Assembly (NCBI RefSeq): GCF_010994755.1
Contig: NZ_WHSB02000001.1
Span: 806,001 to 870,000 of the forward strand
DNA from: Shinella lacus
Lineage (GTDB): Bacteria; Pseudomonadota; Alphaproteobacteria; Rhizobiales; Rhizobiaceae
DNA length: 64,000 nt
Direction of reading: 5' to 3'
Shown piece after piece: positions 25,988 through 41,570 of the stretch. Each line of letters begins with the position of its first letter. The stretch's first letter is position 1. The translations under genes were made by a program, and so were the position numbers. The notes below the pieces were generated by a model. That model searched no databases. It saw only the letters and a list, made by a program, of their open reading frames with translations, and was not told where the DNA came from.

Positions 25988-27088
25988 ATGAACCAGCAGA
26001 CCATTCCCAACGTCACCCTGTTCGATCTTCTGGCGCGCAACTGGCAGCGCCCGGCGCCCGTCCGCCAGCTCTGTTTCAACGAGGACGACACGATCCTGGC
26101 GATCGGTTCCGCCGACGGCGCGGTCGCCCTCGCCCGCATCGGCGACAATGAACCGCCGGAATCGCGCATCGCGATCGACAACGGCCAGACGACGATCGCG
26201 CCGCGAAAGGGCAAACCCTCGCCGCTGATCAGCACCCGCATTCAGGAGGGCGCTGCCCTTTCGGCCTACCGGGACGGCGCCTTTCTTGTCTCGACCCGCA
26301 GCGGCGAACTTCTCCACGTCACGCGTTCCGGCGAGATCGCGGGAAAAGTTCTTTCCGACAGGACCCCGATTTCTGCCTTCGCCCATAACCACGCGGCAGA
26401 CCTGACGGCGGTGGTCGTCAGGCGGCGGCTACGCCTGCAATCGGGCGAGGTGCAAGCGATCCGAGAAGTCGATCTCGGCGAGCTGGCGCCGGTGATCGTC
26501 TCGATATTCAACGATGGCAGTCTGATCGCCCTTGCCGGCCCGAACAGATTGAGCATCCGGCGCAGCCACGATGATCCCGGCCCGCTATTGGAAGCCGACC
26601 TTTCATCACCACCGCTATCGTTGAAATGGAGCGCGGATGGTCGATGGCTCGCCTGCGGGCTACAAACTGGCGACCTCTGTCTGCTGAATGCGGAAACCGG
26701 CGAGCGCATTGTGTTCGCCGATTTTCCGGGTCCGGTGGGCACGGTCGACTGGAGTTCGGTGACGAACACCGTTCTCGCGTCCGGAGCCTATCGCATCGCC
26801 GGCTGGTCGATGACGGCAGCGCCTGCCAAGGCGCTTGCAACGGGACGTGCCGGCTTCGTCATGGTCGAGGCCGTGGCAGTGCATCCGTCCAAGGCACTGG
26901 TGGCCGCAGGCTACGCAAACGGCAGGATTGCCGTCGCCGAGATTGGCTCACCCGAAGAGCTGACCATCTGCGATATCGGCGGCCCCGTCACGGCGCTGCG
27001 ATGGTCGGCGAGTGGCCGCTATCTGGCGGCGGGCGACGCCTTGGGCAACGCCGCCATCATCACCTTCCCCAATGAAATCTTCAAATAG
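25988..27088 (+). CDS. WD40-like beta-propeller protein
   Basis: The 366-residue protein contains at least five WD40-like blades, each with a hydrophobic-SxDG-xxLAxG pattern: CFNEDDTILAIGSADG, LKWSADGRWLACGLQTGD, VDWSSVTNTVLASGAY, VHPSKALVAAGYANG, LRWSASGRYLAAGDALG. It has no signal peptide or catalytic domain, so it looks like a cytoplasmic scaffold. GGGAGG precedes ATG 25988. It is in one operon with the two small proteins before it and the 59-residue protein after it. Function unknown. Confidence 0.78.
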   Translation: MNQQTIPNVTLFDLLARNWQRPAPVRQLCFNEDDTILAIGSADGAVALARIGDNEPPESRIAIDNGQTTIAPRKGKPSPLISTRIQEGAALSAYRDGAFLVSTRSGELLHVTRSGEIAGKVLSDRTPISAFAHNHAADLTAVVVRRRLRLQSGEVQAIREVDLGELAPVIVSIFNDGSLIALAGPNRLSIRRSHDDPGPLLEADLSSPPLSLKWSADGRWLACGLQTGDLCLLNAETGERIVFADFPGPVGTVDWSSVTNTVLASGAYRIAGWSMTAAPAKALATGRAGFVMVEAVAVHPSKALVAAGYANGRIAVAEIGSPEELTICDIGGPVTALRWSASGRYLAAGDALGNAAIITFPNEIFK

Positions 27089-29020: not shown

Positions 29021-30904
29021 ATGCAGCATCTATCGGGAATGGATCGCGCGCGCAGCGCGCTGGAAAAAGGCGAGCGTTTCCCCATCGGCACGCTGCATCC
29101 CGTCGTGGCCGACAGCTGGCAGCGCTGCCGCGATTTCGATCTCAACCCGCGCGGCACGCCACGCCACAACGTCGTCGCCTTTGCCGATGTGAAACAGCGG
29201 CGCGAGGCGAACACCGCCATGCGCCTGCTGGCGCTGGCCGAGATGCAGCTCCTGCATTCGCAGATCGCCGGCTCCAATTTCATGATCGCGCTGGGGGACG
29301 CGAACGGCGTCGTGCTGGATACGATCAGCGACCAGCACTTCGCCGACAGCGAGGCGGGCCGCGCGATCATTCCCGGCAGCATCTGGAACGAAAGCGAGCG
29401 TGGCACCAATGCGCTGGGGCTTGCCGCCCTCGTCGAAAAGCCGGTGGCGATCTATGGCCGGGAGCACTATTTTGCCTGCCACGGCCATCTGAGTTGCATG
29501 GCTGCACCCATCTTCAGTTCGGATGGCAAGGTGCTTGGCCTGCTCGACGCCTCCTGCGCCCATGAAGCCCGGCAGGAGCACACCCACGCTCTGGTCCGCA
29601 TGGCCGCGGCCCAGATCGAAAACGGCCTCCTCTACCAGAGCCATTCGAAAAGCTTCGTCTTCGCCTTCCATCCGCGCGTGGAATATCTCGACACGCTCTC
29701 CGCCGGCCTGGTTTCCGTCTCGCTCGATGGCGAAATCCTGTCGATCAACCGCCCGGGCAAGACCCTGCTGGACGGCCTGCCGGCCCTGTTGGGCAACCAT
29801 TTCGACATGCTGTTCGAAGCCGGCTTCGGCCAGGCGGTGGACGGTCTCCTGAAGGGCGGCGTCATCCGGATCCGCGACCGGGCGGGCAGCGGCGTCTTCA
29901 TGGTCTGCCGGCAGATCGGCGAGCACGATGCCCCGGTGAAGAAGCGCTCGTCACCATCGATCCCGGCCCTCATCCGACAGGAAAGCGCACCGGACTTCGT
30001 TTCACACGATCCGGCCGTCAAACGATCGCTTGGCGACCTCGCCGAGGCGGCGGTGCTGCGCATGCCCGTGCACATCACCGGGGAAACCGGCACCGGCAAG
30101 GAGCTGATGGCGCAGCATGTCCACAAGGTCAGCGCGCGCAAGGGCGAGTTCGTCGCGCTCAATTGCGGCGCCGTGCCGGAAGAACTGTTCATCGCGGAAA
30201 TTTTTGGCCACGAGCGCGGCGCCTTCACCAATGCGCGCGCCGAAGGCTCCATCGGGCTGGCACGCATGGCCGACCGCGGCACGCTGTTCCTCGACGAGGT
30301 CGCCGATATTCCGCTGGCGGCGCAGACCTCCTTGCTGCGGTTTCTCGACAGCATGGAAATCCGCGCCGTCGGCGCGCAAAAGACGCAGAAGGTGGATGTC
30401 CAGATTGTCTCGGCAACCAATCGCGACCTGGAAAACATGGTGGCGCACAGGCAGTTCCGGGCGGACCTCTATTATCGCCTGAACGCCTTCTCCATCCGCT
30501 TGCCGCCGCTGCGCAGCCGGACCGATTTTGCAAGCATCGTGCGCCACCTCATGGAAAAGATGGCGCCCGGAACGCCGGTGACCGATGCGGCGATCGCCAC
30601 GCTCTCGCAGCGAAAATGGCCGGGCAACATTCGAGAGCTCAGGACCGTCCTGCAACGCGCGCTGGTGCGCCGCTGCGCCGACTACATCGATGAAAGCTGC
30701 TTCGACGAGGCCAGCCTCGTGCCTGACCTTGCCCGCGATTGCTGCGACGAGTGTCGGGACAGGCCGCTCAGCCGCGCCAAATGCCAGGAAATCCGGTCGG
30801 TCTACGAAAAGACGCAGCAGAACATCTCCCGGACGGCGCGGGAACTCGGGCTGTCCCGCACCACGGTCTACAAACATGTACGGACCGTGGAAGCATCGCC
30901 GTAG
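29021..30904 (+). CDS. AcoR-type activator with altered GAFTGA loop (GAFTNA)
   Basis: The 627-residue protein has an N-terminal GAF-type sensor at about 70-205, a PAS-like region at about 220-300, and an AAA+ domain with Walker A GETGTGKE 354-361 and Walker B GTLFLDE 420-426. A C-terminal Fis-type helix-turn-helix follows (NISRTARELGLSRTTVYKHV). The sigma-54 contact loop reads GAFTNA at 400-405 (Gly404 to Asn). GAGGAG precedes ATG 29021. It diverges from the alcohol dehydrogenase, its most likely target, but the loop change raises doubt over normal sigma-54 activation. A Cys-rich segment near the end (CCDECRDRP) may bind metal. Confidence 0.87.
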   Translation: MQHLSGMDRARSALEKGERFPIGTLHPVVADSWQRCRDFDLNPRGTPRHNVVAFADVKQRREANTAMRLLALAEMQLLHSQIAGSNFMIALGDANGVVLDTISDQHFADSEAGRAIIPGSIWNESERGTNALGLAALVEKPVAIYGREHYFACHGHLSCMAAPIFSSDGKVLGLLDASCAHEARQEHTHALVRMAAAQIENGLLYQSHSKSFVFAFHPRVEYLDTLSAGLVSVSLDGEILSINRPGKTLLDGLPALLGNHFDMLFEAGFGQAVDGLLKGGVIRIRDRAGSGVFMVCRQIGEHDAPVKKRSSPSIPALIRQESAPDFVSHDPAVKRSLGDLAEAAVLRMPVHITGETGTGKELMAQHVHKVSARKGEFVALNCGAVPEELFIAEIFGHERGAFTNARAEGSIGLARMADRGTLFLDEVADIPLAAQTSLLRFLDSMEIRAVGAQKTQKVDVQIVSATNRDLENMVAHRQFRADLYYRLNAFSIRLPPLRSRTDFASIVRHLMEKMAPGTPVTDAAIATLSQRKWPGNIRELRTVLQRALVRRCADYIDESCFDEASLVPDLARDCCDECRDRPLSRAKCQEIRSVYEKTQQNISRTARELGLSRTTVYKHVRTVEASP

Positions 30905-31129
30905 CAAATATAAAAAGAGGCCGCTAATTTAAAATATACCTAAATAACGACTATACTCATGAAGGCGAGCCGGCGGCGCAATAAGCTCGAATTTTTCATT
31001 CACGTACGAAGAAAACTGCGCCTTGAAACGTAACCCAGGCGCAATACATTGCCCTTGGCTACCCTTCAGGCAGTCGCGGGCCTTGATCCCGTTTCGACGC
31101 AGCCCGCCAGAACAGGACCGATCTGTCGC

Positions 31130-32215
31130 ATGCCTCAACAGACCGCCGCCATCCAACGCCCCCCTGCCGAAATCGCATATCGAGAGGAACTGGACGCCCT
31201 GCGTCGCACCGACAAGGGGCCACGTCCGCCCGGTTGGGCACTTTCGCTGCGGGCCGTCAAATCCTTCGTGCTCGGCGGTGATGGCGCGAGCGCCAAGCTC
31301 GTCGCTTCCCCCGCCCTCATCGAGCGCGCGATGGTCACGCTCGCCACCTCCCGCGCCCTTCTCCTCATCGGCGAGCCGGGCACGGCCAAGAGCTTTCTCT
31401 CGGAGCTGCTTGCCGCAGCCATCGGCGCGGATTCGACGCTGACGATCCAGGGCGGCGCATCGCTCACCGAGGACCAGATCAAATATGGCTGGAACTATGC
31501 GCTTCTCGTCAGCGAGGGGCCGAGCCGGCGCGCGCTCGTTCCGGCACCTTTGCATCGCGGCATGTCGGACGGCAAGATCGTGCGTTTCGAGGAAATCACT
31601 CGCTGCCCGCTGGAAGTGCAGGATACCCTGCTGTCGATCCTCTCGGACCGGGTCATGGCCGTGCCGGAGCTTTCCGGCGAGGACGGCATGGTCTTCGCCC
31701 GCGACGGCTTCAATGTCATCGCCACCGCGAACACCCGCGACCGCGGCGTCAATGAAATGTCGGCGGCGCTGAAGCGGCGCTTCAACTTCGAAACGGTCTT
31801 TCCTATCCGCGACGCGGACGAGGAACTGGCGCTGGTCAAGCGCGAGGCAGCAAAGCTGCTCGCCCGCTCCGGCGTGCCGGCCGCACCCGACGACGACGTG
31901 CTGGAAGTCCTCGTCACCTGCTTTCGCGAATTGCGTGACGGCCTTTCGGCCGAGGGCGGCATGGAGCGGCTGAGCTCCGTGATGAGCACCGCGGAAGCCG
32001 TCAGCGTCGCCCACGCCGTCGGCGTGCGCGGCCATTACATGCGCGGCGACCGCGGACGGCCTGAAGACATCATCGAATGCCTTGCCGGCACCGCCGCCAA
32101 GGACAATGCGGAAGATCTCACAAAGCTCCGGCGCTATCTGGAGCAGAAGGTATCGAAGCGGTCCGGCGAAGCTTGGAAGGCGTTTTATGCGGCTCGGCAT
32201 CTTCTCACGCCCTGA
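31130..32215 (+). CDS. MoxR-family AAA+ ATPase (YehL-like)
   Basis: ATG 31130 gives 361 residues; a TTG 81 bases upstream is less likely. Motifs are Walker A GEPGTAKS 81-88, Walker B KIVRFEEI 149-156, sensor-1 VIATANTRD 196-204 and arginine finger in LKRRF near 214-218. MoxR ATPases work with vWA-domain partners as remodelling or metal-insertion chaperones (RavA-ViaA, NorQ-NorD, CbbQ-CbbO). A vWA gene is four genes down. It is first of five overlapping genes (31130-41570) that correspond in domain content to E. coli yehL, yehM, yehI, yehP and yehQ. The 225 bases upstream hold an AT-rich stretch with a TATACT box at 30952 and nothing else I recognise. Confidence 0.85.
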   Translation: MPQQTAAIQRPPAEIAYREELDALRRTDKGPRPPGWALSLRAVKSFVLGGDGASAKLVASPALIERAMVTLATSRALLLIGEPGTAKSFLSELLAAAIGADSTLTIQGGASLTEDQIKYGWNYALLVSEGPSRRALVPAPLHRGMSDGKIVRFEEITRCPLEVQDTLLSILSDRVMAVPELSGEDGMVFARDGFNVIATANTRDRGVNEMSAALKRRFNFETVFPIRDADEELALVKREAAKLLARSGVPAAPDDDVLEVLVTCFRELRDGLSAEGGMERLSSVMSTAEAVSVAHAVGVRGHYMRGDRGRPEDIIECLAGTAAKDNAEDLTKLRRYLEQKVSKRSGEAWKAFYAARHLLTP

Positions 32216-34517
32216 GCGCAAGACCGCGCCGGCAGCGGGCGAACGGCTCGTCGTGATCGGCGTCCGGCACCATTCGCCTGCCTGCGCGCGCCTGGTCCGC
32301 CAGGCCATCGCGCGCCACCGTCCAGCCTTCGTGCTGATCGAGGGGCCGGCGGACTTCAATCCGCATCTTGCCGATCTCCGGCTCGACCACCAGCTGCCGC
32401 TTGCGATCTTCAGCTATCACGCGAGCCGGCACCGCAGCTTCGCTTCCTATTCGCCCTTCTGCGCCTATTCGCCGGAATGGGAGGCCTTGCAGGCCGCGTG
32501 GGAGGTCGGGGCGACGCCCCTCTTCTGCGACCTCCCGGCCTGGCATCCGGATTTCGGCGAGCGGGCCAACCGCTATGCCGATCCGCATGGTCGCCGCGCC
32601 GCCGTGGCCGAAGCTGCCGTCGCCGGTGCGCTTGGCGAGGATGGCCGCGATGCCGTCTGGGACGCGCTTGCAGAACAGGCGCCGGCCGACGAGCTGGAGC
32701 GCCGGCTGGACCGCTATTTCGACCTGCTGCGCCCGGAGGGCGGCGAGGACCCGCAGGAACTTTCCCGCGAGCGCTTCATGGCCGCCCATGCCGCCTGGGC
32801 GCTGAAGGAGGCGCAAAACCGCAAGGTGGTCCTCGTCTGCGGCGGCTGGCATGCGGAGGCGATACGGCGGCTGGCACGGGAGGCGGATGGGGAACGGCCT
32901 GCTGTCCCGGCCCCGACCGGCGACGAGCGCGCCGGAAGCTATCTCGTGCCTTACGATTACCGCCGGCTCGACCGCTTCACCGGCTACGCCTCCGGCATGC
33001 CCTCTCCCGCCTATTACGAACAGGTTTTCGCCCGTGGGCTGGATGCCGCCGCCGACTGGGCGGAAAACGCGATCGCACAGGCGATGCGGGCCGCCGGGCA
33101 GGTCGTCTCCACGGCCGATCGGGTGGCCTGGCACACCCATGCGCAGGCGCTCGCCATGGCACGCGGCCACCGTACGAGGCTGCGTTCGGATCTGCTCGAC
33201 GCGGCACTCGCGACCCTCGTCAAGGATGGGCTCGACCAGCCTGCCGCCTGGAGCCGCGACGGCGCCGTGCGTGCCGGCACCCATCCCGCCCTCGTCGCGA
33301 TGCTGAAGGCACTGACCGGCGAACGCCGCGGCCGGCTGGCGCCCGGAACGCGCCGGCCACCGCTGATCACCGACATCGAGATCCGGCTGGCAGAGGCGGG
33401 GCTGACGCCCGACCATCGCGCCCGCCAGATCGAACTCGACTGGAACGTTGCGGCCGACCGGGAGCGCGCCCACACGCTGAACGCGTTGCGGCTTCTCGGC
33501 ATGCCCGGTCTGGAACGGCTCGAAGGTCCGCTGGCGCCCCGCACCGCCGCCCCGCGGGAAACCTTCCGTCTGGTCCTCCATCGCGATGCGGAAGGCACGC
33601 TGATCGAGGCGTCGCGCTGGGGCGGCACGTTGCCGATGGCGGCGGCCGCGCTCCTCAGCGATCGCGCGGCGCAAGCCGGGGGCGACCTTAAAATCCTCTC
33701 CCTTTGCCTGGCCGATGCACTGTTTGCCGGATTGCTCGTTCTCGAAAACGACCTGACCGCTCAGCTCGCGCAGGGCATCGCGCTGTCGCACGACATGGGC
33801 GCCATCGGCGCGGCGGGCCGCCTGGCCGTCCAGTTGCATCGCTTCGGCGAGATTTTCGGCATCGCCGCGCGGCAAGCACTCGGCGAGTTGTGCGAAGCCG
33901 TCTTCGACAAGGTGTTGCAGACCGCGGAGTCCATCCACAACGACGAGGAGGGCCTGCGCGCCATTCCGGCATTCGCCGCCTGCCGCGACATGCTGCGCGA
34001 TTGCCCGGACCTCGATATCGAGCGCGACGCCTTTCTGGCGACGCTCGGCCGGTGCCTGGCGAATGCGGAAACGGCACCTGCCGTTGCCGGCGCGGCCCTG
34101 GGCACGCTCGTGGCCTGCGGTGAAGGCGGCGCCTACGATGTCGCCGGCCGCATGCACCGTTTCAGCCGGCCCGACCAGCTCGGCGATTTCCTGTCGGGGC
34201 TGTTTGCGCTGGCGCGCGAGGAGATTGCCGCCGACACGGCCGTCATCGACGCTGTCCGCGCCCTGATTGACGGCTGGCACGACGATGCCTTCCTAACGGC
34301 GCTCCCTGCCCTCCGGCAGGCCTTCGCGTTTTTCCCGCCACGCGAGCGGGAGCGGCTGTCGCGCGTCATCCTTCGCGCCCATGGCGCGAGCGAGGCGCAA
34401 GCGGAAATCCAGGCGCTGGAATGGATGCGCCAGCCGGCACACGTCACCGACCAGGCGGCGGCACTGGCACTCGAAGCGATCGTCGCCCGGCGTCTTGCCG
34501 ATGCCGGGCTGGTTTGA
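32187..34517 (+). CDS. DUF5682-family protein (YehM-like)
   Basis: ATG 32187 lies inside the end of the MoxR gene (29-base overlap), giving 776 residues. The N-terminal region has VRHHSPACA at 26-34, LIEGPADF at 50-57 and CGGWHAEAI near 218-226. His and Glu in such positions recall the EreA/ChaN/TraB group of putative metal-dependent enzymes, an inference from pattern only. The rest is helical. The family (PF18934) occurs mainly next to MoxR, vWA and SWIM genes. Cytoplasmic, with no membrane segment. It overlaps or nearly abuts both neighbours, indicating coupled synthesis. Confidence 0.78.
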   Translation: MRLGIFSRPERKTAPAAGERLVVIGVRHHSPACARLVRQAIARHRPAFVLIEGPADFNPHLADLRLDHQLPLAIFSYHASRHRSFASYSPFCAYSPEWEALQAAWEVGATPLFCDLPAWHPDFGERANRYADPHGRRAAVAEAAVAGALGEDGRDAVWDALAEQAPADELERRLDRYFDLLRPEGGEDPQELSRERFMAAHAAWALKEAQNRKVVLVCGGWHAEAIRRLAREADGERPAVPAPTGDERAGSYLVPYDYRRLDRFTGYASGMPSPAYYEQVFARGLDAAADWAENAIAQAMRAAGQVVSTADRVAWHTHAQALAMARGHRTRLRSDLLDAALATLVKDGLDQPAAWSRDGAVRAGTHPALVAMLKALTGERRGRLAPGTRRPPLITDIEIRLAEAGLTPDHRARQIELDWNVAADRERAHTLNALRLLGMPGLERLEGPLAPRTAAPRETFRLVLHRDAEGTLIEASRWGGTLPMAAAALLSDRAAQAGGDLKILSLCLADALFAGLLVLENDLTAQLAQGIALSHDMGAIGAAGRLAVQLHRFGEIFGIAARQALGELCEAVFDKVLQTAESIHNDEEGLRAIPAFAACRDMLRDCPDLDIERDAFLATLGRCLANAETAPAVAGAALGTLVACGEGGAYDVAGRMHRFSRPDQLGDFLSGLFALAREEIAADTAVIDAVRALIDGWHDDAFLTALPALRQAFAFFPPRERERLSRVILRAHGASEAQAEIQALEWMRQPAHVTDQAAALALEAIVARRLADAGLV

Positions 34518-34539
34518 TGATGAGATGAGGATGGACAGC

Positions 34540-37500
34540 ATGGAACGCTACGAACTCGTCGAGGGAACCTCCTCTAAATTCTGGGAAGCTGCCGTCGCAG
34601 GAACCCGGCTCACGGTGCGTTTCGGGCGGATCGGGACGCAGGGCCAGACGAAGGACAAGGACTTCGACAGCGCCGAGGATGCCGAGAAGGAAAAGAAGAA
34701 GCTCGTCAAGGAGAAGACCGGCAAGGGCTATGTGCTGGCGGCAAACGGTGCGGCCGCGCCCGCCGCCCCTCAACCGAAACCCCAACCCGCCGAAGCGAAG
34801 ACGGAAAAGCCCGCGCCGGCAGCGGCAGCCGAGATCGAGGAAAAGCCGGTCGCCGAGACGCCTCAGGAGCGCGCTCCCGAACCGGCTCCGCCGGAGATTC
34901 ATCTGGACGAGGCCCAGCTCGACACGTTGCTGGGGGAGCCGCTCGCCACCCGCTCACGTCCGCATCCACATCTCGACGCGGCCGGCGCCTGGGCGCAACT
35001 CGTCACCGACCTGCAAAGCATCAAGCCGCTCGTTCGCAAGGAAGGTGTCGAGGCCCTAGCCTGGCTGTCGGAGAGGATGGGCGAAACCGGCCCGAAGGAC
35101 CCTGCCTCCGGCGGCGCCGTCGGCTGGCTGAAATCGAAGTTTGCCGGAAAGGCGGCGGCGAGCCTCGACCCCGCGGAAGCGCAGAAGTGGATCTCACAGA
35201 TCCTTCTTGCGAGCGACGGCCTGGTCATGGGGCAGAAGGGCCGCGAGGACAAACGGGCGGCGAGCCTCTTCACCCTGCGCGCCTTCTTCTTCTGGCTTTT
35301 CGGCACGGGCGGTGTCGAGGCCCTGATCGAAGCCGTGCTGCCCTCCATCGGCAATGTCCGCAAGGGCCGCCATGGCTATGACACGTCCTCCTGGAGCGCG
35401 CCGTTCGATCTTGCCCTGCGCGATGTACTGACGTCGCTGCCGCAGCAGGACTACGAACAGGCGATCGGCCTGTTGACGCCGGTCTATCACGCCGAGCAGG
35501 ACTGGATGAAGAAAACCATCTACGCCTTCGTCCTGGGCGATGACCGTCCGGTCACGCACGACCTCACGCCGCTTTCCGTCCTCAACCAGGCTGCCGCCAG
35601 CGGCGAGGATGTCGGTGCGTGGCTTTGCATGGTGCCGCTGATCGTCGACGCGCCGCCGTCCGCGACGAGCAAATGGCGCGCAAAACGCTCCTATTTCATG
35701 TATTTCACCTATCTCGACGTCCCGCTCTCGGACATCGCGGCCAGCATCATCGCCAATGCGCGGCATTACGGCGAGACGCCGCTGCCCATGCTCGACTGGA
35801 TGCTCCACTATGGCTACGAAGCACAGCGCACGACGCTGGCCCGCATCATACTCGCCACCGGCGACGACACGGCGCTGACCGTGCTCCTGCCCTATCTGCA
35901 TGAAAAGTGGATCCGCGCAGCACTCGACGAGGCAATGGCGGCCAATCCGGCGCTCGGCCTGCGCCAGCACCTCGTGACGCTCGCCGCGGGACGAAACGAA
36001 CCGGTTGTCCGCGCCCGGGTGATGGATCTCATCAAGCAATATCCGGCACAAACCCTGAAGGCCTGGGCCGGCAGCGGCCGGCCGCTTGCCCAGTTGGAGC
36101 GGCTGCTTGAAACCAACAATGTCCCGCTTGCCGCGCCCGAAAGCCTGCCAGGGGTCCTTAAGGATCCGCCATGGCGCAAGAAGGCCGTCAGGAACGAAGA
36201 CACGGTGCTTGATCTCAAGCCGGTCGCGACACCTTTCCGCTATCACCGCGAGGAGCCCCTCCCGGAAGAAAACCGCTGGCGCCATTCGCGCGCCCGCATC
36301 GTCAAGACAACGGAGGAGCTGATCAAGGCGATCCGTGAGTTCGAGGCGAAGGAACTCTCCGACTGGTACAAGGTGCCGCGGTCGCTCTCGGTGCCGCAGC
36401 CCGGCGACGACGAGGAGCAGGTGCTCGCCTTTGTCGCGCAGCGTGTGAGCGAAATCCACAACGCCCGCTCCTATGCGCTGACCGTGAGCGGATGGAACAC
36501 GCTGATCGATGCCGTCGAGCAGCAGCCCGACAGGCTGGCGATGACGCTTTGGGGATGCCCGGGCGTCCTGGCGAGCTATTTCATGGGCGATGTCTATCCA
36601 CGCATGATGGCCCGCTTCGGCGAGAGGGCGCTTCCCGGCCTGCTGCGCCAGGTCGAAAGCGACCCGATCGGCATGCTCGACAAGGTGAAGGACGTCGATG
36701 CGGCGGAGCTCGCCCCGCTCGCCGCACGCGCACTGCTCAAGCTCAAGAAGGCCCGGCTGCCGGCCATGCACTGGCTGCGGAGCCATCGCCAGACGGCGAT
36801 CACCCGGCTCATCCCCGACGCCGCCGGCAGGAAGGGCGCGGCACGCGATGCCGCGGAACATACGTTGCGCTGGCTGATTGCCGACCGGGCGGAGACGCGC
36901 GAGGAAATCGAAGCGATCGCCCGCACCTACGAGGCGCAGTCCGCCGACGTGCACAAGGCGCTCGCCGAGGTTCTGGACCGCGACCCGCTCGGCCGTTACC
37001 CGGCACGCATCGCCAAGCTGCCCGCCTGGTTCAAGCCCGCCGCTCTTGCCCGCCCGGCCCTGAAGGCGGGCGGCGCGTTTCCGGACGAAGCGGTCACCGC
37101 CCTTGCGGAGATGGTGTCGTTTTCCACGCCGGAAGCCATCTATGCCGGCATCGACGTCGTCAAGGACACGGCGAACCCCGACAGCCTCGCCCGCTTCTCC
37201 TGGGACCTGTTTTCCGCCTGGCTGGCGGAGGGTGCGCCGGGCAAGGATGGCTGGGCGCTGCGGGCGATCGGCTGGCTCGGCGACGATGAATGCGCCCGCC
37301 AGTTGACCCGGCTGATCCGCAAGTGGCCGGGCGAATCCGCCCACCAGCGCGCCGTGACCGGTCTCGACGTGCTGGCCGATATCGGCACCGACGTCGCCCT
37401 GATGAACCTCAACGGCATCGCCGAGAAGCTGAAGTTCAAGGGCCTCCAGGAGCGGGCGCGCGAAAAGATCGCCGTTCTCGCCGAGGCACGCGACCTGACG

Positions 37501-38490
37501 CCGGAGGAACTGGCCGACCGGCTGGCGCCGGACCTTGACCTCGACGAGCGCGGCGGCATGGACCTCGACTTCGGCCCACGGCGCTTCCGTGTCGGTTTCG
37601 ACGAGTTCCTGAAGCCCTGGGTGAAGGACGAAACCGGAAAGCGGCTGAAGGACCTGCCGAAGCCGGCGAAATCGGACGACGGAGAGCTTTCCGCCACCGC
37701 CGTCAAGACGTGGGCGGCCTTGAAGAAGGATGCCCGCGCGGTTGCGAGCCTCCAGATCACGCGGCTGGAAAACATGCTCTCGACCTCGCGGCGCGTGGCC
37801 CCGGATGTCTTCTGGACCTTCTTCGCTAGCCATCCGCTGATCCGCCACCTCACCCAGCGCCTGGTCTGGGGCATCTATGGCGACCGCGATCCGCGCACCG
37901 CGCCGACGACGGTCTTCCGGGTCTCGGACGATCTTTCCGTCACGAATGCCGCCGATGACACGCTTGATCTCGATTTTTCGGCGAGCGCGCCGGGCTTCAT
38001 CGGGCTCGTTCATCCGTTGCATTTGCCGGCGGGAGGGCTCGATGCCTGGGGTGCGCTGTTCGGCGACTACGAGATCTCGCAGCCCTTCGCGCAGCTTGGC
38101 CGGGAGATCCACACGCTGAGCGAGACGGAAAAGACCACGCGCGAAATCGACCGCTTCGAAAACCTCAAGGTGGAATCGGCCCGCATTCGCGGCATGGCGT
38201 CCCGCGGCTGGCAGCTTGGCTCGCCGCAGGATTCAGGCTGCATCTGGTGGTTGGAGCGGCCTGTCCGGTTCCAGGACGGCACGACGAAGGACGCGATGTT
38301 CTACTTCAGTGACGGCCTCTTTGCCGGCGCGGCGGATTTCGAGGACAAGCTCCAGACCCTCGGCAAGCTCTCGCTGGAGCAACCCTATGGCAACAAGGGT
38401 GGCACCAGGACCTTCGGTGAGCTGGACCCGGTGACGGCGAGCGAGATGCTGCGCGGGCTGGCGCTGCTTGCGGAAACGGCGGTGAAATGA
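34540..38490 (+). CDS. giant WGR/DUF4132 protein (YehI/MolR-like)
   Basis: From ATG 34540, with GATGAGG 9 bases upstream, the protein has 1316 residues; ATG 34525 and 34531 are alternatives. Residues 1-70 are a WGR domain (YELVEGTSSKFWE, RFGRIGTQGQ), the nucleic-acid-associated module found in PARPs. A Pro/Ala/Glu-rich linker (about 75-125) follows. Then comes a very long helical, HEAT-like region, with the DUF4132 domain towards the C-terminus. It probably serves as the large scaffold or client-binding part of the MoxR-vWA module. It overlaps the vWA gene by ATGA. Confidence 0.78.
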   Translation: MERYELVEGTSSKFWEAAVAGTRLTVRFGRIGTQGQTKDKDFDSAEDAEKEKKKLVKEKTGKGYVLAANGAAAPAAPQPKPQPAEAKTEKPAPAAAAEIEEKPVAETPQERAPEPAPPEIHLDEAQLDTLLGEPLATRSRPHPHLDAAGAWAQLVTDLQSIKPLVRKEGVEALAWLSERMGETGPKDPASGGAVGWLKSKFAGKAAASLDPAEAQKWISQILLASDGLVMGQKGREDKRAASLFTLRAFFFWLFGTGGVEALIEAVLPSIGNVRKGRHGYDTSSWSAPFDLALRDVLTSLPQQDYEQAIGLLTPVYHAEQDWMKKTIYAFVLGDDRPVTHDLTPLSVLNQAAASGEDVGAWLCMVPLIVDAPPSATSKWRAKRSYFMYFTYLDVPLSDIAASIIANARHYGETPLPMLDWMLHYGYEAQRTTLARIILATGDDTALTVLLPYLHEKWIRAALDEAMAANPALGLRQHLVTLAAGRNEPVVRARVMDLIKQYPAQTLKAWAGSGRPLAQLERLLETNNVPLAAPESLPGVLKDPPWRKKAVRNEDTVLDLKPVATPFRYHREEPLPEENRWRHSRARIVKTTEELIKAIREFEAKELSDWYKVPRSLSVPQPGDDEEQVLAFVAQRVSEIHNARSYALTVSGWNTLIDAVEQQPDRLAMTLWGCPGVLASYFMGDVYPRMMARFGERALPGLLRQVESDPIGMLDKVKDVDAAELAPLAARALLKLKKARLPAMHWLRSHRQTAITRLIPDAAGRKGAARDAAEHTLRWLIADRAETREEIEAIARTYEAQSADVHKALAEVLDRDPLGRYPARIAKLPAWFKPAALARPALKAGGAFPDEAVTALAEMVSFSTPEAIYAGIDVVKDTANPDSLARFSWDLFSAWLAEGAPGKDGWALRAIGWLGDDECARQLTRLIRKWPGESAHQRAVTGLDVLADIGTDVALMNLNGIAEKLKFKGLQERAREKIAVLAEARDLTPEELADRLAPDLDLDERGGMDLDFGPRRFRVGFDEFLKPWVKDETGKRLKDLPKPAKSDDGELSATAVKTWAALKKDARAVASLQITRLENMLSTSRRVAPDVFWTFFASHPLIRHLTQRLVWGIYGDRDPRTAPTTVFRVSDDLSVTNAADDTLDLDFSASAPGFIGLVHPLHLPAGGLDAWGALFGDYEISQPFAQLGREIHTLSETEKTTREIDRFENLKVESARIRGMASRGWQLGSPQDSGCIWWLERPVRFQDGTTKDAMFYFSDGLFAGAADFEDKLQTLGKLSLEQPYGNKGGTRTFGELDPVTASEMLRGLALLAETAVK

Positions 38491-39626
38491 CGGTGACGGC
38501 CCTCGATGCCCTGACACGGTGGCGCCTCGTCCTCGGCGAGGCGGCGGATGGAGCCTGCCGCTCCGCCGGCGGCGCGCTTGCCGGCGAGACGCTCGCCATG
38601 GATGCGGCGCTCGACTGGCTCTACGGGCGCGAGGAGGAGGACGGCACGCGCAACATCGCGCGTCAGGGCGGGCGCGGCGGCTCCGCGCTGACGACGCCGC
38701 AATGGATCAACGACATCCACCGGCTCTTCCCAAAGGAGACCATCGAGCGGCTTGAGCGCGACGCGATCGAGCGTTATGCGATCGACGACGTGGTGACGAA
38801 CCCGGACGTGCTGGCGCGCGCCGAGCCGAACGAGACGCTGCTGAAAGCGGTGCTCCGCACCAAGCATTTGATGTCGCCCGACATCCTCGTGCTGGCGCGC
38901 AAGCTGGTGCAGGAGGTCGTGCGCCAGCTGATGGAAAAGCTCAGCCGCGAACTGACGCTAGCCTTTTCCGGGGTGGTGGACCGGCGACGTCACAGCCGGT
39001 TCCGCATCGCCAGCGACCTCGATTTCCGCCGGGTGGTGAAGGACAATCTCAAGCACTACGATCCCGAGACACGCAAACTGACCGTCGAAAGGCTGCATTT
39101 CTTCGCCCGCAACCAGCGGCACATGAAGACCTGGCAGATCATCCTGCTCGTCGACCAGAGCGGCTCCATGCTGGATTCGGTGATCCATTCGGCGGTGACC
39201 GCCGCCTGCCTTTGGGGGCTGCCGGGCGTTCGCACCCACCTCGTCGCCTTCGACACCAATGTCGTCGACCTCACGAAGGATGTGGACGATCCCTGCGAGC
39301 TGCTGATGAAGGTGCAGCTCGGCGGCGGCACGGACATACAGGGCGCCGTCGCCTATGCGGCCGGCCTCATCGAACAGCCGGAGCGGGCGATCGTCGTTCT
39401 GATCTCGGACTTCTACGAAGGCACAAGCCCTGCCATGCTCGAACAGCGTGTCGCCTCGCTCACCGCCCAGCGCACCCTGGTACTCGGTCTTGCCGCGCTC
39501 GATTCGGAAGCGGCGCCCGCCTACGATCGCGAGATGGCGCGCCGGCTGGTTGCCGCCGGGGCGGAAGTGGGCGCGATGACGCCCGGCGAGCTGGCCGGCT
39601 GGCTCGCCGAAAAGATCGGACGCTAG
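38487..39626 (+). CDS. von Willebrand factor A-domain protein (YehP-like)
   Basis: The 379-residue protein has an N-terminal helical region (1-210) followed by a vWA domain with an intact metal-ion-dependent adhesion site: DQSGS at 223-227, Thr282/Asp283 in GGGTDIQGA, and LISDFYEG. It is cytoplasmic. vWA proteins encoded with MoxR ATPases act as their adaptor or substrate-recruiting partner. The start overlaps the WGR gene stop (ATGA), and the stop is 3 bases before the SWIM gene. Confidence 0.87.
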   Translation: MTVTALDALTRWRLVLGEAADGACRSAGGALAGETLAMDAALDWLYGREEEDGTRNIARQGGRGGSALTTPQWINDIHRLFPKETIERLERDAIERYAIDDVVTNPDVLARAEPNETLLKAVLRTKHLMSPDILVLARKLVQEVVRQLMEKLSRELTLAFSGVVDRRRHSRFRIASDLDFRRVVKDNLKHYDPETRKLTVERLHFFARNQRHMKTWQIILLVDQSGSMLDSVIHSAVTAACLWGLPGVRTHLVAFDTNVVDLTKDVDDPCELLMKVQLGGGTDIQGAVAYAAGLIEQPERAIVVLISDFYEGTSPAMLEQRVASLTAQRTLVLGLAALDSEAAPAYDREMARRLVAAGAEVGAMTPGELAGWLAEKIGR

Positions 39627-39629
39627 CGC

Positions 39630-41570
39630 ATGGCCCGTTCCGACCTGATCGCGCTGACCGATGAAGGGCTCGTGCAGCTTTCCAATGCGGGCCTCGTCAA
39701 GCGGGCCGTTCGCGAGCTTGCCGCCGGAAGCGGACCTGCCATTGCGGAAGCGGCCGACGGCACGATTGAGGCCCGCTTTTCCGACGGCACGCTGACCCGC
39801 CTCACCCCCGACCAGGGTCTCGCCGATGCGAGCTGCACCTGCCCCTCCTCGGGTGTGTGCCGCCACCGCATCATGCTGGCCGTCGCCTATCGGGCGGAAA
39901 GGGCGGAGGCGACGGGCTCGGATGCGCCGGCAACACCAAACTGGAACCCTGCCGCGCTGGACCCGGGCATCTTCGAGGCAACGCTGGCACCATCGACGAA
40001 AGCGGAACTCTCCCGCCTCATGGCGTCCCGCCACACGGTCCGGCTCGAATATGGACAGACGCCCACGGCGCATCTGCCGATGGCGAGCGTGCGCTTCCTC
40101 GTGCCGGACGACCTGTCCTATGCCCGCTGCGACTGCGTGGAGGGCCAGCGCTGTGCCCATATCGCGCTGGCGATCCGCGCCTTCCGGGCAGCCGATGGCG
40201 GCAGGGAAACGGCGATCGGCGGCGGCCACGCCGCGGACAGCGGCGGCTCCAGCGAAAAGCTCCGCGAGGCATGCGACGCGGTCGTTTCCCGCCTCATCGA
40301 GGCCGGCATCACGGCCGGGCCGGCTGCCTATGAGCAATCGCTCGCGGCCGCGCACCGCCATGCCGAGGCGCTCGGCGCGGCGCAGATGCTTCTCGTGCTC
40401 GGCGCGCTGCGCGAACAGATAGACGCCTATGAAAGCAGGAGCGCCCGTTACGACGAGCGGGCCGTGCTCCGGCTTGCCGCCGAGCTTTTCGCCCGCACGC
40501 GGGCCGGCGACGCCGCCAGTGCGCTTGGCCTCGGCGAACCCTTCGAAACCGCCATGGGCAAATCGCGCCTCGTCTCGCTCGGTGCCCGGCTCCGGCAGGA
40601 GGGCACGGATATCCGCGCCTCCATCCTGCTCGCCGACAGCGACATGGGCGCCACGATGCTGATCGAGAGACTCTTCTCGCCACTGCCCGCGGACCGCGAC
40701 ACCTTCCAGGCCTCGGTGGTGCGCCGGCAGATGGCGCCGGGCCTGCCGGTTGCCGGCATCGGCCGCGGGCAGATTCTCACCAGCGTCGCACGCCGCAGGG
40801 CCGATGGCCTGCTCGGCCTCGGCAGCGGCAGCGGCGGGCGCACGCAGGTCATGTCGCGCGACGCGGTCTTCGCCTTCCCCCGGCCGCTCGCAACGACACG
40901 GCTTGCCGAGGTCGCGGACGCGCTTTCCGCCCGCCCCATCGCACTGCTGCGGCCACGCAGGCTGTGCGACGCGGTGCATGTCTTCGAGGTGGAGGCGGTC
41001 CTCGGCCAGTCCTGGGCGCCCGGAAGCCAGATATGGGAGGCCGCGGTGCGCCTCAGGGGCGACGGCGGCGTCCTCTATCTGGAGCGCGAATTCGATGCCG
41101 GCGCTCCCGGCGCGACCGGCGTGCTGGCCGCCGCGCTCGACGGCGCGTGGGGCGCGCTCCGCCAGGTGGCCGGGCCGGTGAGAATGGAAAGCGGCGCGCT
41201 CGTCTGCACGCCATGGTCGCTTTCGGCCGATCGCTTCATCGTTCCCGATCTCGATGTCGCCGAAGAGCAGGATAGCGTGATCCCTGCGGCGATGGATGCG
41301 CGGTCTGACCTGCTGGACGAGACCGAGCGGCTCCTCAGCGGTGTGCTGCACGCCGGAAGCCGCGCGCGAAGTGCCGTCGATGCCCTCGCCGCTTCGCTCC
41401 ACGCCCGGCTTGACGGCGCCGGCTACCGCGCCATGGCCGAGCGGCTTTCCCTTTGGAGACAAGCGCCGGCAGCGGACCACACCGAGTTTTGCCGTGCCGC
41501 GATCTGGCTTCTGACAGTGCAGGAAAGCCGCGCATGGAACCAGCCGACCTCCAGCGACCGTATCGAGTGA
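39630..41570 (+). CDS. tandem SWIM zinc-finger protein (YehQ-like)
   Basis: This 646-residue protein has two SWIM-type zinc sites of the form CxC-x5-CxH: Cys69/Cys71/Cys77/His79 and Cys167/Cys169/Cys175/His177. The remaining ~450 residues are helical and unassigned. SWIM domains bind DNA or proteins. It is last in the five-gene module and begins 3 bases after the vWA stop, so it is very probably co-expressed with it. Confidence 0.83.
   Translation: MARSDLIALTDEGLVQLSNAGLVKRAVRELAAGSGPAIAEAADGTIEARFSDGTLTRLTPDQGLADASCTCPSSGVCRHRIMLAVAYRAERAEATGSDAPATPNWNPAALDPGIFEATLAPSTKAELSRLMASRHTVRLEYGQTPTAHLPMASVRFLVPDDLSYARCDCVEGQRCAHIALAIRAFRAADGGRETAIGGGHAADSGGSSEKLREACDAVVSRLIEAGITAGPAAYEQSLAAAHRHAEALGAAQMLLVLGALREQIDAYESRSARYDERAVLRLAAELFARTRAGDAASALGLGEPFETAMGKSRLVSLGARLRQEGTDIRASILLADSDMGATMLIERLFSPLPADRDTFQASVVRRQMAPGLPVAGIGRGQILTSVARRRADGLLGLGSGSGGRTQVMSRDAVFAFPRPLATTRLAEVADALSARPIALLRPRRLCDAVHVFEVEAVLGQSWAPGSQIWEAAVRLRGDGGVLYLEREFDAGAPGATGVLAAALDGAWGALRQVAGPVRMESGALVCTPWSLSADRFIVPDLDVAEEQDSVIPAAMDARSDLLDETERLLSGVLHAGSRARSAVDALAASLHARLDGAGYRAMAERLSLWRQAPAADHTEFCRAAIWLLTVQESRAWNQPTSSDRIE

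Follow-up and report, generated by a model that had tools for sequence, protein, structure and literature searches.

The five large genes at positions 31130 to 41570 of the window (the 64,000-nucleotide stretch of Shinella lacus DNA analysed here) are best explained, with a probability of about 0.48, as encoding a mobile, self-contained five-protein MoxR-vWA remodelling machine of the Escherichia coli yeh type, in which the DUF5682 protein would be both the dedicated client and the working enzyme. An uncharacterised and widespread machine of this kind sits in E. coli, the best-studied bacterium. A literature search for the five-protein set nevertheless returned no paper on it, the matches listed being mostly unrelated; among 5.39 million open-licence papers, two or more of yehL, yehM, yehP and yehQ were named in only two, whose titles and abstracts present one as a genome announcement and the other as a strain resource, and the names DUF5682 and DUF5691 were not found there. 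The gene yehQ appears in the strain list within an excerpt of a paper on butanol.

Organization and boundaries of the five-gene unit

The unit comprises the following features, the Pfam input being the longest open frames.

31007..31129, + strand: probable promoter/leader of the five-gene unit; homology with a same-genus copy (G614) begins at 31007, which suggests the promoter role.
31130..32215, + strand: MoxR-type AAA+ ATPase, YehL-like, 361 aa; Pfam AAA_5 1.9e-35, 61% identity to YehL, motifs kept.
32187..34517, + strand: DUF5682 protein, YehM-like, 776 aa, candidate enzyme; Pfam 1.1e-94, AlphaFold pLDDT 91.6, ChaN/TraB profile match, invariant motifs.
34540..38490, + strand: WGR, HEAT-like repeats and DUF4132, YehI-like putative scaffold, 1316 aa; Pfam WGR and DUF4132, HEAT-type profile matches.
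38487..39626, + strand: CoxE-type vWA protein, YehP-like, 379 aa, MIDAS intact; Pfam VWA_CoxE 1.4e-54.
39630..41570, + strand: SWIM zinc-finger protein, YehQ-like, 646 aa, two CxCx5CxH motifs; Pfam SWIM 2.8e-5, motif counts.

All five open reading frames are intact and tightly spaced on one strand. The MoxR and DUF5682 genes overlap by 29 bp, a 22-base gap separates the DUF5682 and WGR-DUF4132 genes, the latter joins the vWA gene through an ATGA overlap, and 3 bases lie between the vWA and SWIM genes. An initial annotation had described five coupled genes with these domains from the letters and open reading frames; open reading frames, spacing and Pfam agree with it, and profile searches of each protein recovered AAA_5, DUF5682, DUF4132 plus WGR, VWA_CoxE and SWIM.

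Homology to the unit of the congener G614 spans 31007 to 41530, an extent that argues against an origin of the unit within the neighbouring monooxygenase operon. When the window is compared with this congener, Agrobacterium vitis and Sinorhizobium sp. RAC02, similarity does not extend beyond the five genes, and their surroundings are different. The window's monooxygenase region has a homologous counterpart in Rhizobium sp. CB3060, which stops at the regulator and leaves the unit out. The neighbouring diiron monooxygenase cluster is probably incidental.

Conservation, linkage and movement of the set

The set is conserved in composition, its proteins diverge in concert, and it moves as a unit. 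In a scan seeded with DUF5682, 66 loci had sufficient flanking sequence, and 59 of them have all five families: 58 as independent genes, and L048 as a locus where DUF5682 and vWA share a single frame, a fusion seen again in L072. These loci span eight phyla as named in the records. The fixed set anticipated by the initial annotation, including its presence in the E. coli yeh genes and in actinobacteria, is upheld, the window encoding homologues of all five Yeh proteins. Three of the 66 complete loci (L018, L062 and L079) have no nearby DUF4132, and DUF5682 is solitary in L083 and in L070, the latter a locus with less flank; because such loci exist, some DUF5682 proteins may work without the machine.

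Across 398 genomes of the phylum, DUF5682 is found in 14, DUF4132 in 11 and both in 9 (the window genome included), against 0.39 expected by arithmetic, and in 8 of these 9 genomes the two share a contig and are no more than 10 kb apart. When protein distances are compared pairwise over 31 loci, those of the five proteins correlate at 0.86-0.96, with a permutation maximum of 0.33; these correlations are uncorrected for the species tree. Clustering of 635 neighbouring open reading frames from 80 loci yielded no further family recurring as partner or client, and the unit looks self-contained.

Occurrence is patchy close to the window and dense elsewhere: with the window genome counted, the unit is present in 3/21 genomes of the genus and, above the cut-off, in 6/151 of the family, and it is near-core in E. 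coli, where 3976 of 5426 genomes carry at least 80% of yehI-yehQ. It moves whole, is sometimes plasmid-borne, and once lies beside a type I restriction system. A phage-borne system was rejected or left weak, since none of the 5 pattern matches from a scan of viral contigs was confirmed as a relative; the sole match in a phage collection is an unverified faecal scaffold of 14 kb. The PHROGs collection contains families matching DUF5682, DUF4132, vWA and SWIM.

The MoxR ATPase and the vWA protein

In its AAA_5 domain the ATPase has both Walker motifs, A and B, together with the sensor and the arginine finger, the features of MoxR AAA+ proteins, and we take it to be of the YehL type. The Walker A lysine, both Walker B glutamates, the sensor asparagine and the RR pair are kept in 67/67 sequences; the phenylalanine of FEE (58/67) and the Walker A serine (56/67) are less fixed. 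Walker B reads FEE in the window type, the usual MoxR form being a DE pair. A match of the window set to the Pfam bpMoxR family reached 18.5 bits, under its cut-off of 27. The vWA protein has the domain and full MIDAS of a VWA_CoxE cochaperone, and D/S/S/T/D is present in all 57 sequences.

DUF5682 as a candidate ChaN/TraB-superfamily enzyme

Proteins of the ChaN/TraB superfamily are His/Glu metal- or haem-binding hydrolases. Residues 12-345 of DUF5682 (about the first 330) matched the ChaN-like profile PF04187 with a score of 48.6 over 181 columns (E 5.4e-6, single comparison), and the N-terminal part matched TraB PF01963 with 34.6 over 196 columns. The reference pair of PF04187 and PF01963 scored 49.1, and control maxima were 22.4 and 20.2 for 50 column shuffles each and 20.7 for six other profiles, such that the whole-domain similarity stands above the controls. 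A separate profile comparison gave 42.1 for ChaN, and 26.5 for TraB over only 32 columns. The motifs follow one another in the same register: DUF5682 RHHxP with ChaN GExHxxP, IEGP with the ChaN glutamate, RExxMA with RDxxMA, and GGFH with GxGH. The His/Glu motifs singled out at first sight proved invariant, R27, H28, H29, P31, E52, E97, D115, R194, E195 and H222 being present in 62/62 sequences.

Judged from sequence profiles, the N-terminal part is most likely a member of the ChaN/TraB (TIKI-like) superfamily or very similar to it, a proposed placement that is new here. This call leans on profile comparison and motifs because Foldseek, run with the whole AlphaFold model, gave no PDB match at E <= 0.001; a search of the DUF5682 profile against PDB sequences likewise gave nothing convincing. 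The C-terminal part, of about 440 residues, is mostly helical. The placement names residues to mutate, making an old unknown directly testable, and the His/Glu site offers the first testable idea of the machine's function.

The WGR-DUF4132 and SWIM proteins

Pfam detects DUF4132 (4.6e-47) and WGR (1.5e-17) in the 1316-residue protein. Among 36 DUF4132 proteins scanned, the DUF4132 domain is present in all and WGR in 14, and the window protein has the make-up of the MolR-like group, for which DUF4132 is required and WGR optional. The DUF4132 family profile matches solved structures of HEAT type, and a structure model built for the C-terminal 757 residues (pLDDT 88) returned general HEAT/ARM scaffolds alone from Foldseek, with E above 0.001. 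The similarity between DUF5691 and DUF4132, with a score of 31 against 16.5 for the reversed comparison (E 0.013), is too weak to count as clear homology; Pfam DUF5691 matches 1/36 DUF4132 proteins, at 5e-4.

Two SWIM sites had been claimed for the last protein, and two CxCx5CxH motifs are indeed present, at residues 69-79 and 167-177. Pfam, however, reports one stretch. The first motif, which satisfies the CxCxnCxH pattern of SWIM zinc fingers, is kept in 42/45 aligned relatives, but all four residues of the second occur in at most 20/45. The SWIM profile found nothing convincing among PDB sequences. An ADP-ribose connection, also suggested initially, was abandoned, as Pfam finds no ADP-ribose-related domain in the five proteins and WGR is confined to the 14/36 DUF4132 proteins noted above.

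Proposed mechanism and alternative explanations

In the preferred mechanism, the vWA protein would engage the MoxR ring through its MIDAS domain, and DUF5682 would be opened, metallated or switched by the ring at the expense of ATP. Target recognition would fall to the SWIM zinc protein and to the HEAT-repeat DUF4132 protein, some members of which carry WGR; the two would keep the target, a nucleic acid or a protein, in contact with the DUF5682 enzyme. We infer complex formation, hydrolase or metal chemistry and target selection, and the mode of action of the MoxR-vWA pair may follow, by analogy, the NorQ/NorD precedent as outlined in excerpts of PMC9976466 and PMC13036017. A broader version, which is tentative and somewhat unlikely, envisages a bacteria-wide class of ATP-gated enzymes in which a MoxR-vWA motor controls DUF5682 as a ChaN/TraB-superfamily protease or hydrolase, DUF4132 and DUF5691 are exchangeable scaffolds, and SWIM proteins are target readers. 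If true, E. coli would possess an unrecognised system of regulated proteolysis or hydrolysis that has no relation to Clp, Lon, FtsH or the proteasome.

It is quite unlikely that the unit instead serves a separate metalloenzyme as the chaperone inserting its metal or cofactor, for example in the manner of NorQ/NorD, the client in one version being the upstream diiron monooxygenase. The vWA protein is of the CoxE type by Pfam, CoxD/CoxE serve CO dehydrogenase, and molR presumably belongs with the DUF4132/WGR group. Excerpts of the literature further describe metal insertion by NorQ/NorD for nitric oxide reductase (PMC9976466, PMC13036017), cite Lee 1990 for a requirement of molR in molybdate use (PMC8533742, PMC4245954), tie molR to the DUF4132/WGR group (PMC8533742) and record yehM mutations after copper exposure (PMC12409786). 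However, no client gene recurs among the 635 neighbouring frames, which argues against fixed linkage to a metalloenzyme; in A. vitis, RAC02 and G614 the unit has different neighbours, and the CB3060 monooxygenase region lacks it; and in the excerpted Deinococcus radiodurans data moeA/moeB were not differentially expressed while the DUF4132 operon was induced (PMC8533742).

An anti-phage or inter-bacterial conflict system is improbable, although MoxR-vWA ternary systems have been proposed as such in the part of PMC7159879 consulted, and the patchiness in genus and family, the movement as a whole, sometimes on plasmids, and the one neighbouring restriction system would suit it. A strong match comes from Bradyrhizobium (L066), where a frame downstream of the unit, cut by the contig end, matches PADLOC WGR_XIII (4.3e-116) and HEAT-ARM_XIII (5.2e-15) and resembles the window WGR-DUF4132 protein in its WGR-plus-HEAT composition; because of this match the conflict reading was given slightly more weight and the best explanation slightly less. 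Lone neighbours match models for GajB-type helicase, RTasHel, PD-Lambda-2_C and DpdF in a scan of 105 of 316 candidate neighbours (hits at 1e-15, no background control), but these are isolated members, helicase models among them. Moreover, no PADLOC model matched the window DUF5682, DUF4132, vWA or SWIM proteins, the MoxR ATPase had two weak matches, the viral-contig scan confirmed no relative, the unit is near-core in E. coli, and its motifs are invariant rather than variable. The conflict function floated in the initial annotation finds little support, though the L066 neighbour, one of the 105 scanned, matches WGR_XIII strongly.

A role in DNA damage or nucleic-acid stress, in which WGR and SWIM would act as sensors of DNA or RNA, has a similarly low probability: the window protein carries WGR, and excerpts report that D. 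radiodurans DRA0166 (DUF4132) and DR2173 (WGR) rise after mitomycin C in the wild type and not in an irrE mutant (PMC8533742) and that a molR1 deletion is synthetic with lepA (PMC4245954), but just 14/36 DUF4132 proteins have WGR, and the D. radiodurans DUF4132 operon may not contain the other unit genes. Four LexA-type patterns were sought in 81 operons, between -350 and +400 relative to the gene presumed to come first, and matched 0, 3, 0 and 0 operons, all 3 downstream of the start, with 0.3-0.6 sites expected per pattern from simple shuffles. With no clear LexA-box signal, SOS regulation as a general feature was rejected or left weak, and the stress or repair role once suggested has only indirect literature in its favour.

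Comparison with known systems

The remodelling machine that we favour is most similar to E. coli K-12 yehI-yehL-yehM-yehP-yehQ, which comprises the same five families, with the MoxR-DUF5682-vWA-SWIM order and overlaps or short gaps. Window proteins share 61% identity with YehL, 35% with YehM, 57% with YehP, 31% with YehQ and 35% over 595 residues with YehI. The YehI alignment omits the WGR part of the window protein, which matches YehF instead. The place of DUF4132 also differs, yehI lying upstream with yehK between, whereas the window copy stands between DUF5682 and vWA; K-12 additionally has yehF and the pseudogene yehH.

A second lineage (Deinococcus, Nocardia, Mycobacterium and others; 6 loci seen) is ordered SWIM-DUF5691-MoxR-DUF5682-vWA. 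It keeps SWIM, MoxR, DUF5682 and vWA, with the order of the last three unchanged and the SWIM protein aligning past the zinc finger, but has the weakly similar DUF5691 in place of DUF4132 and a shorter SWIM protein located upstream. Gene lists are incomplete in Methylosinus (without vWA) and Hymenobacter (without a separate SWIM). Which proteins to purify together can be read from the existence of two lineages, from the fusions and from the way the unit moves.

CoxD/CoxE is a MoxR-vWA pair, and we know of no DUF5682, SWIM or DUF4132 partner for NorQ/NorD, RavA/ViaA or CoxD/CoxE. As in the window, a MoxR ATPase is joined to a vWA partner in NorQ/NorD (excerpts of PMC9976466, PMC13036017) and in RavA/ViaA; unlike these pairs, the window unit has no fixed client gene in the 80 loci. 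The VMAP, iSTAND and beta-propeller ternary conflict systems likewise unite MoxR, vWA and a dedicated protein in one operon (PMC7159879, in part), but Pfam finds no VMAP, iSTAND, beta-propeller or FtsH-type third component in the window five, and SWIM, WGR, YehL and DUF4132 are absent as words from the main text of that paper. PADLOC WGR_XIII and HEAT-ARM_XIII have a WGR and HEAT/ARM composition in common with the window protein, although the window DUF4132 and SWIM proteins gave no match to them at 0.01. We take these models to represent retron type XIII, a system that to our knowledge has no MoxR-vWA motor. Finally, ChaN (PF04187) and TraB/GumN (PF01963) have His, Glu and a final GxxH in register with the N-terminal part of DUF5682, which is set apart from them by its additional ~440 mostly helical residues and its MoxR-vWA operon setting.

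Organization of the five-gene unit

The five genes were each identified from the ORF listing, the translated protein and Pfam:

31130-32215, MoxR protein
32187-34517, DUF5682 protein
34540-38490, WGR-DUF4132 protein
38487-39626, vWA protein
39630-41570, SWIM protein

These coordinates match the spacings claimed in the initial annotation (a 29-bp overlap, a 22-base gap, an ATGA overlap and a 3-base gap), Pfam bears out each of its MoxR, DUF5682, WGR-DUF4132, vWA and SWIM domain calls, and both of the SWIM motifs it described are present in the window protein, the second being retained in no more than 20 of the 45 relatives aligned. G+C is 0.665-0.700 per 2 kb across 32-42 kb of the window and 0.59-0.65 on either side (20-32 kb and 42-62 kb). 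The Walker A K, EE, sensor N and RR residues of MoxR are retained in 67/67 proteins and the vWA MIDAS residues in 57/57. The predicted structure of the DUF4132 protein's C-terminal 757 residues (pLDDT 88) resembles HEAT/ARM scaffolds only loosely, in agreement with the HEAT matches. PHROGs families strongly match the window DUF5682, DUF4132, vWA and SWIM proteins; these families are possibly mis-drawn prophages.

Occurrence and gene order

A genome scan with DUF5682 alignment A1 confirmed at least 578 relatives among 593 stretches, and the best 80 were kept; loci were selected by DUF5682, not by neighbouring genes, and were annotated with HMMs from window and E. coli seeds. The five genes are indeed kept together elsewhere, as had been proposed: all five families occur in 58 of the 66 loci with enough flank (from the best 80 of at least 578 relatives), and in a further one, L048, DUF5682 and vWA share one frame. 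DUF4132 is absent nearby in three (L018, L062 and L079), three others (L091-L093) represent the second lineage, and one (L083) has DUF5682 by itself. At L083 (9923-12370) and L070 (5628-8180), DUF5682 lies without MoxR, vWA or SWIM in the retrieved stretch. By our assignment from record titles, five-family loci occur in Pseudomonadota, Acidobacteriota, Myxococcota, Planctomycetota, Bacillota, Bacteroidota, Verrucomicrobiota and Actinomycetota, the last as anticipated. An independent sample of 398 genomes of the phylum agrees with the DUF5682-seeded scan: DUF5682 was found in 14, DUF4132 in 11 and both in 9, eight of which carry the two at most 10 kb apart on one contig (DUF5682 without DUF4132, 5/14; the converse, 2/11). 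The DUF5682 cut-off is exceeded in 6/151 genomes of the window's family, and 3/21 of its genus have a relative of the window protein, the window genome being included in both counts. As claimed, the five families are all represented in E. coli K-12; at least 80% of yehI-yehQ is present in 3976 of 5426 E. coli genomes and some part in 5342. In E. coli a7 (L099, 4341-6355), IS1 and IS3 pieces lie between WGR-gene and SWIM-gene remnants at the expected site.

Among the loci listed, MoxR, DUF5682, vWA and SWIM keep a constant order, and DUF4132, in one to three copies, lies mostly upstream of the rest. Several Clostridia and Tannerella (L071) have it downstream instead, and at L013 and L069 it is encoded on the opposite strand; the window, Hydrogenophaga (L054), Paenibacillus (L080), G297 (L142), A. 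vitis and RAC02 carry it within the operon. The second lineage, with the order SWIM-DUF5691-MoxR-DUF5682-vWA, is found at L011, L012, L014 and L091-L093 and in Deinococcus taeanensis. Its SWIM protein aligns with that of the first lineage past the finger (E 8.2e-5), and a relationship of DUF5691 to DUF4132 is only suggested by sequence. At L092 (5950-8823), a single 957-aa frame matching the SWIM and DUF5691 models is likely a fusion. Natural DUF5682-vWA fusions, one open frame each, occur at L048 (9971-13675, 1234 aa) and L072 (3-4160, 1385 aa). One genome, G026, has both lineages (L012 and L013); G342 carries L141 and another copy, whose placement in the second lineage is based solely on a high DUF5682 score.

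Mobility

Between the window and the same-genus genome G614, nucleotide homology of ~81% spans 31007-41530 and ends there, other matches within the 34 kb compared being short. The five genes also occur, identically ordered and with other neighbours, on A. vitis pAvCG78a and on pBSY16_2, a conjugative plasmid of Sinorhizobium sp. RAC02; homology to the window extends from 31145 to ~41260, with a gap inside DUF4132. The stretch upstream of the unit, 20.5-30.9 kb, has its matches elsewhere, in rhizobial replicons that carry a soluble diiron monooxygenase cluster. These alignments indicate that the five-gene set moves as a unit. Aminobacter replicons also match the upstream region, which encodes a WD40-type protein (25988-27088) and a sigma-54 regulator (29021-30904); its hydroxylase, MmoB/DmpM, 2Fe-2S and alcohol dehydrogenase names are taken from matching records. 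The five families are also present on the mobilizable 77-kb Iodobacter plasmid pl1 (L147, 4357-21761), where DUF4132 is represented by two genes and a type I restriction system lies after the set.

DUF5682 and the ChaN/TraB superfamily

In the AlphaFold model of DUF5682 (pLDDT 91.6), the N-terminal part is alpha/beta and the C-terminal part mostly helical; a Foldseek search with the complete model against the PDB gave no significant match. By profile, residues 12-345 score 48.6 against ChaN-like and 34.6 against TraB, both over full length, compared with 49.1 for these two profiles against each other, at most 22.4 and 20.2 for shuffle controls, at most 20.7 for six other profiles and at most 17.3 for the C-terminal part. 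The motifs aligning with ChaN/TraB are invariant in 62/62 DUF5682 proteins. The N-terminal part thus appears, by profile, to belong to or closely resemble this superfamily. ChaN binds haem, and TraB, Tiki and EreA-like proteins belong to a single superfamily.

Proposed function and alternatives

DUF5682 and a SWIM protein accompany MoxR and vWA in either lineage, and DUF5682 is twice fused to vWA. The simplest reading is that DUF5682 would be the client of a MoxR-vWA motor. The motor may switch or metallate DUF5682, and the HEAT and SWIM subunits may choose the target. In NorQ/NorD, a finger of the vWA protein is reported to insert into the ring, and the pair to function in metal insertion (PMC9976466, PMC13036017). 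Across 31 loci, pairwise distances show correlations of 0.86-0.96 among the five proteins (species-tree kinship left in), as expected for co-inherited parts.

That the unit is instead a chaperone for an outside metalloenzyme seems unlikely: yehM mutations under copper, reported in E. coli (PMC12409786), are a thin hint, but a constant client is lacking, since no recurrent partner emerged when 635 neighbouring ORFs, some of them not real genes, were clustered. The clusters that spanned at least three loci were antisense frames, the second-lineage SWIM or widespread families (response regulators and ABC transporters, for example).

A conflict role, which we regard as improbable, would suit the patchy, mobile distribution and the WGR_XIII neighbour downstream of the unit in Bradyrhizobium jicamae (L066, 16253-17740; WGR_XIII 4.3e-116, HEAT-ARM_XIII 5.2e-15), a frame left incomplete by the contig end. 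However, no PADLOC model matched the window DUF5682, DUF4132, vWA or SWIM proteins (MoxR drew two weak matches), and no recurrent defence genes turned up when 105 of the 316 candidate neighbours were compared with PADLOC: the matches (GajB-type helicase, RTasHel, PD-Lambda-2_C, DpdF and the one strong WGR_XIII) were isolated, a single member for each model. Nor did a pattern scan of viral contigs confirm a DUF5682 relative or phage carriage.

A damage-response role is likewise improbable: its one real hint is that the DUF4132 protein DRA0166 of D. radiodurans is reported to be induced by mitomycin C (PMC8533742), but no general LexA signature was found from -350 to +400 of the presumed first gene in 81 operons. 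A molR1-lepA interaction reported in E. coli (PMC4245954) is a thin hint. In an ST131 subbranch, a resistance transposon is reported within the metG/DUF4132/yeh region (PMC9334617), which says no more than that the locus can be disrupted.

Comparison with known systems

MoxR-vWA machines are already known, and the gene set itself can be seen, with annotation, in E. coli; the superfamily placement of DUF5682 and the two-lineage description were not found in print in the open-licence literature. The usual Walker B motif ends in DE, whereas that of the window-type MoxR group (31130-32215 and relatives) ends in EE, with both glutamates in 67/67. MoxR/vWA pairs such as NorQ/NorD remodel a client, the part that DUF5682 may play here.
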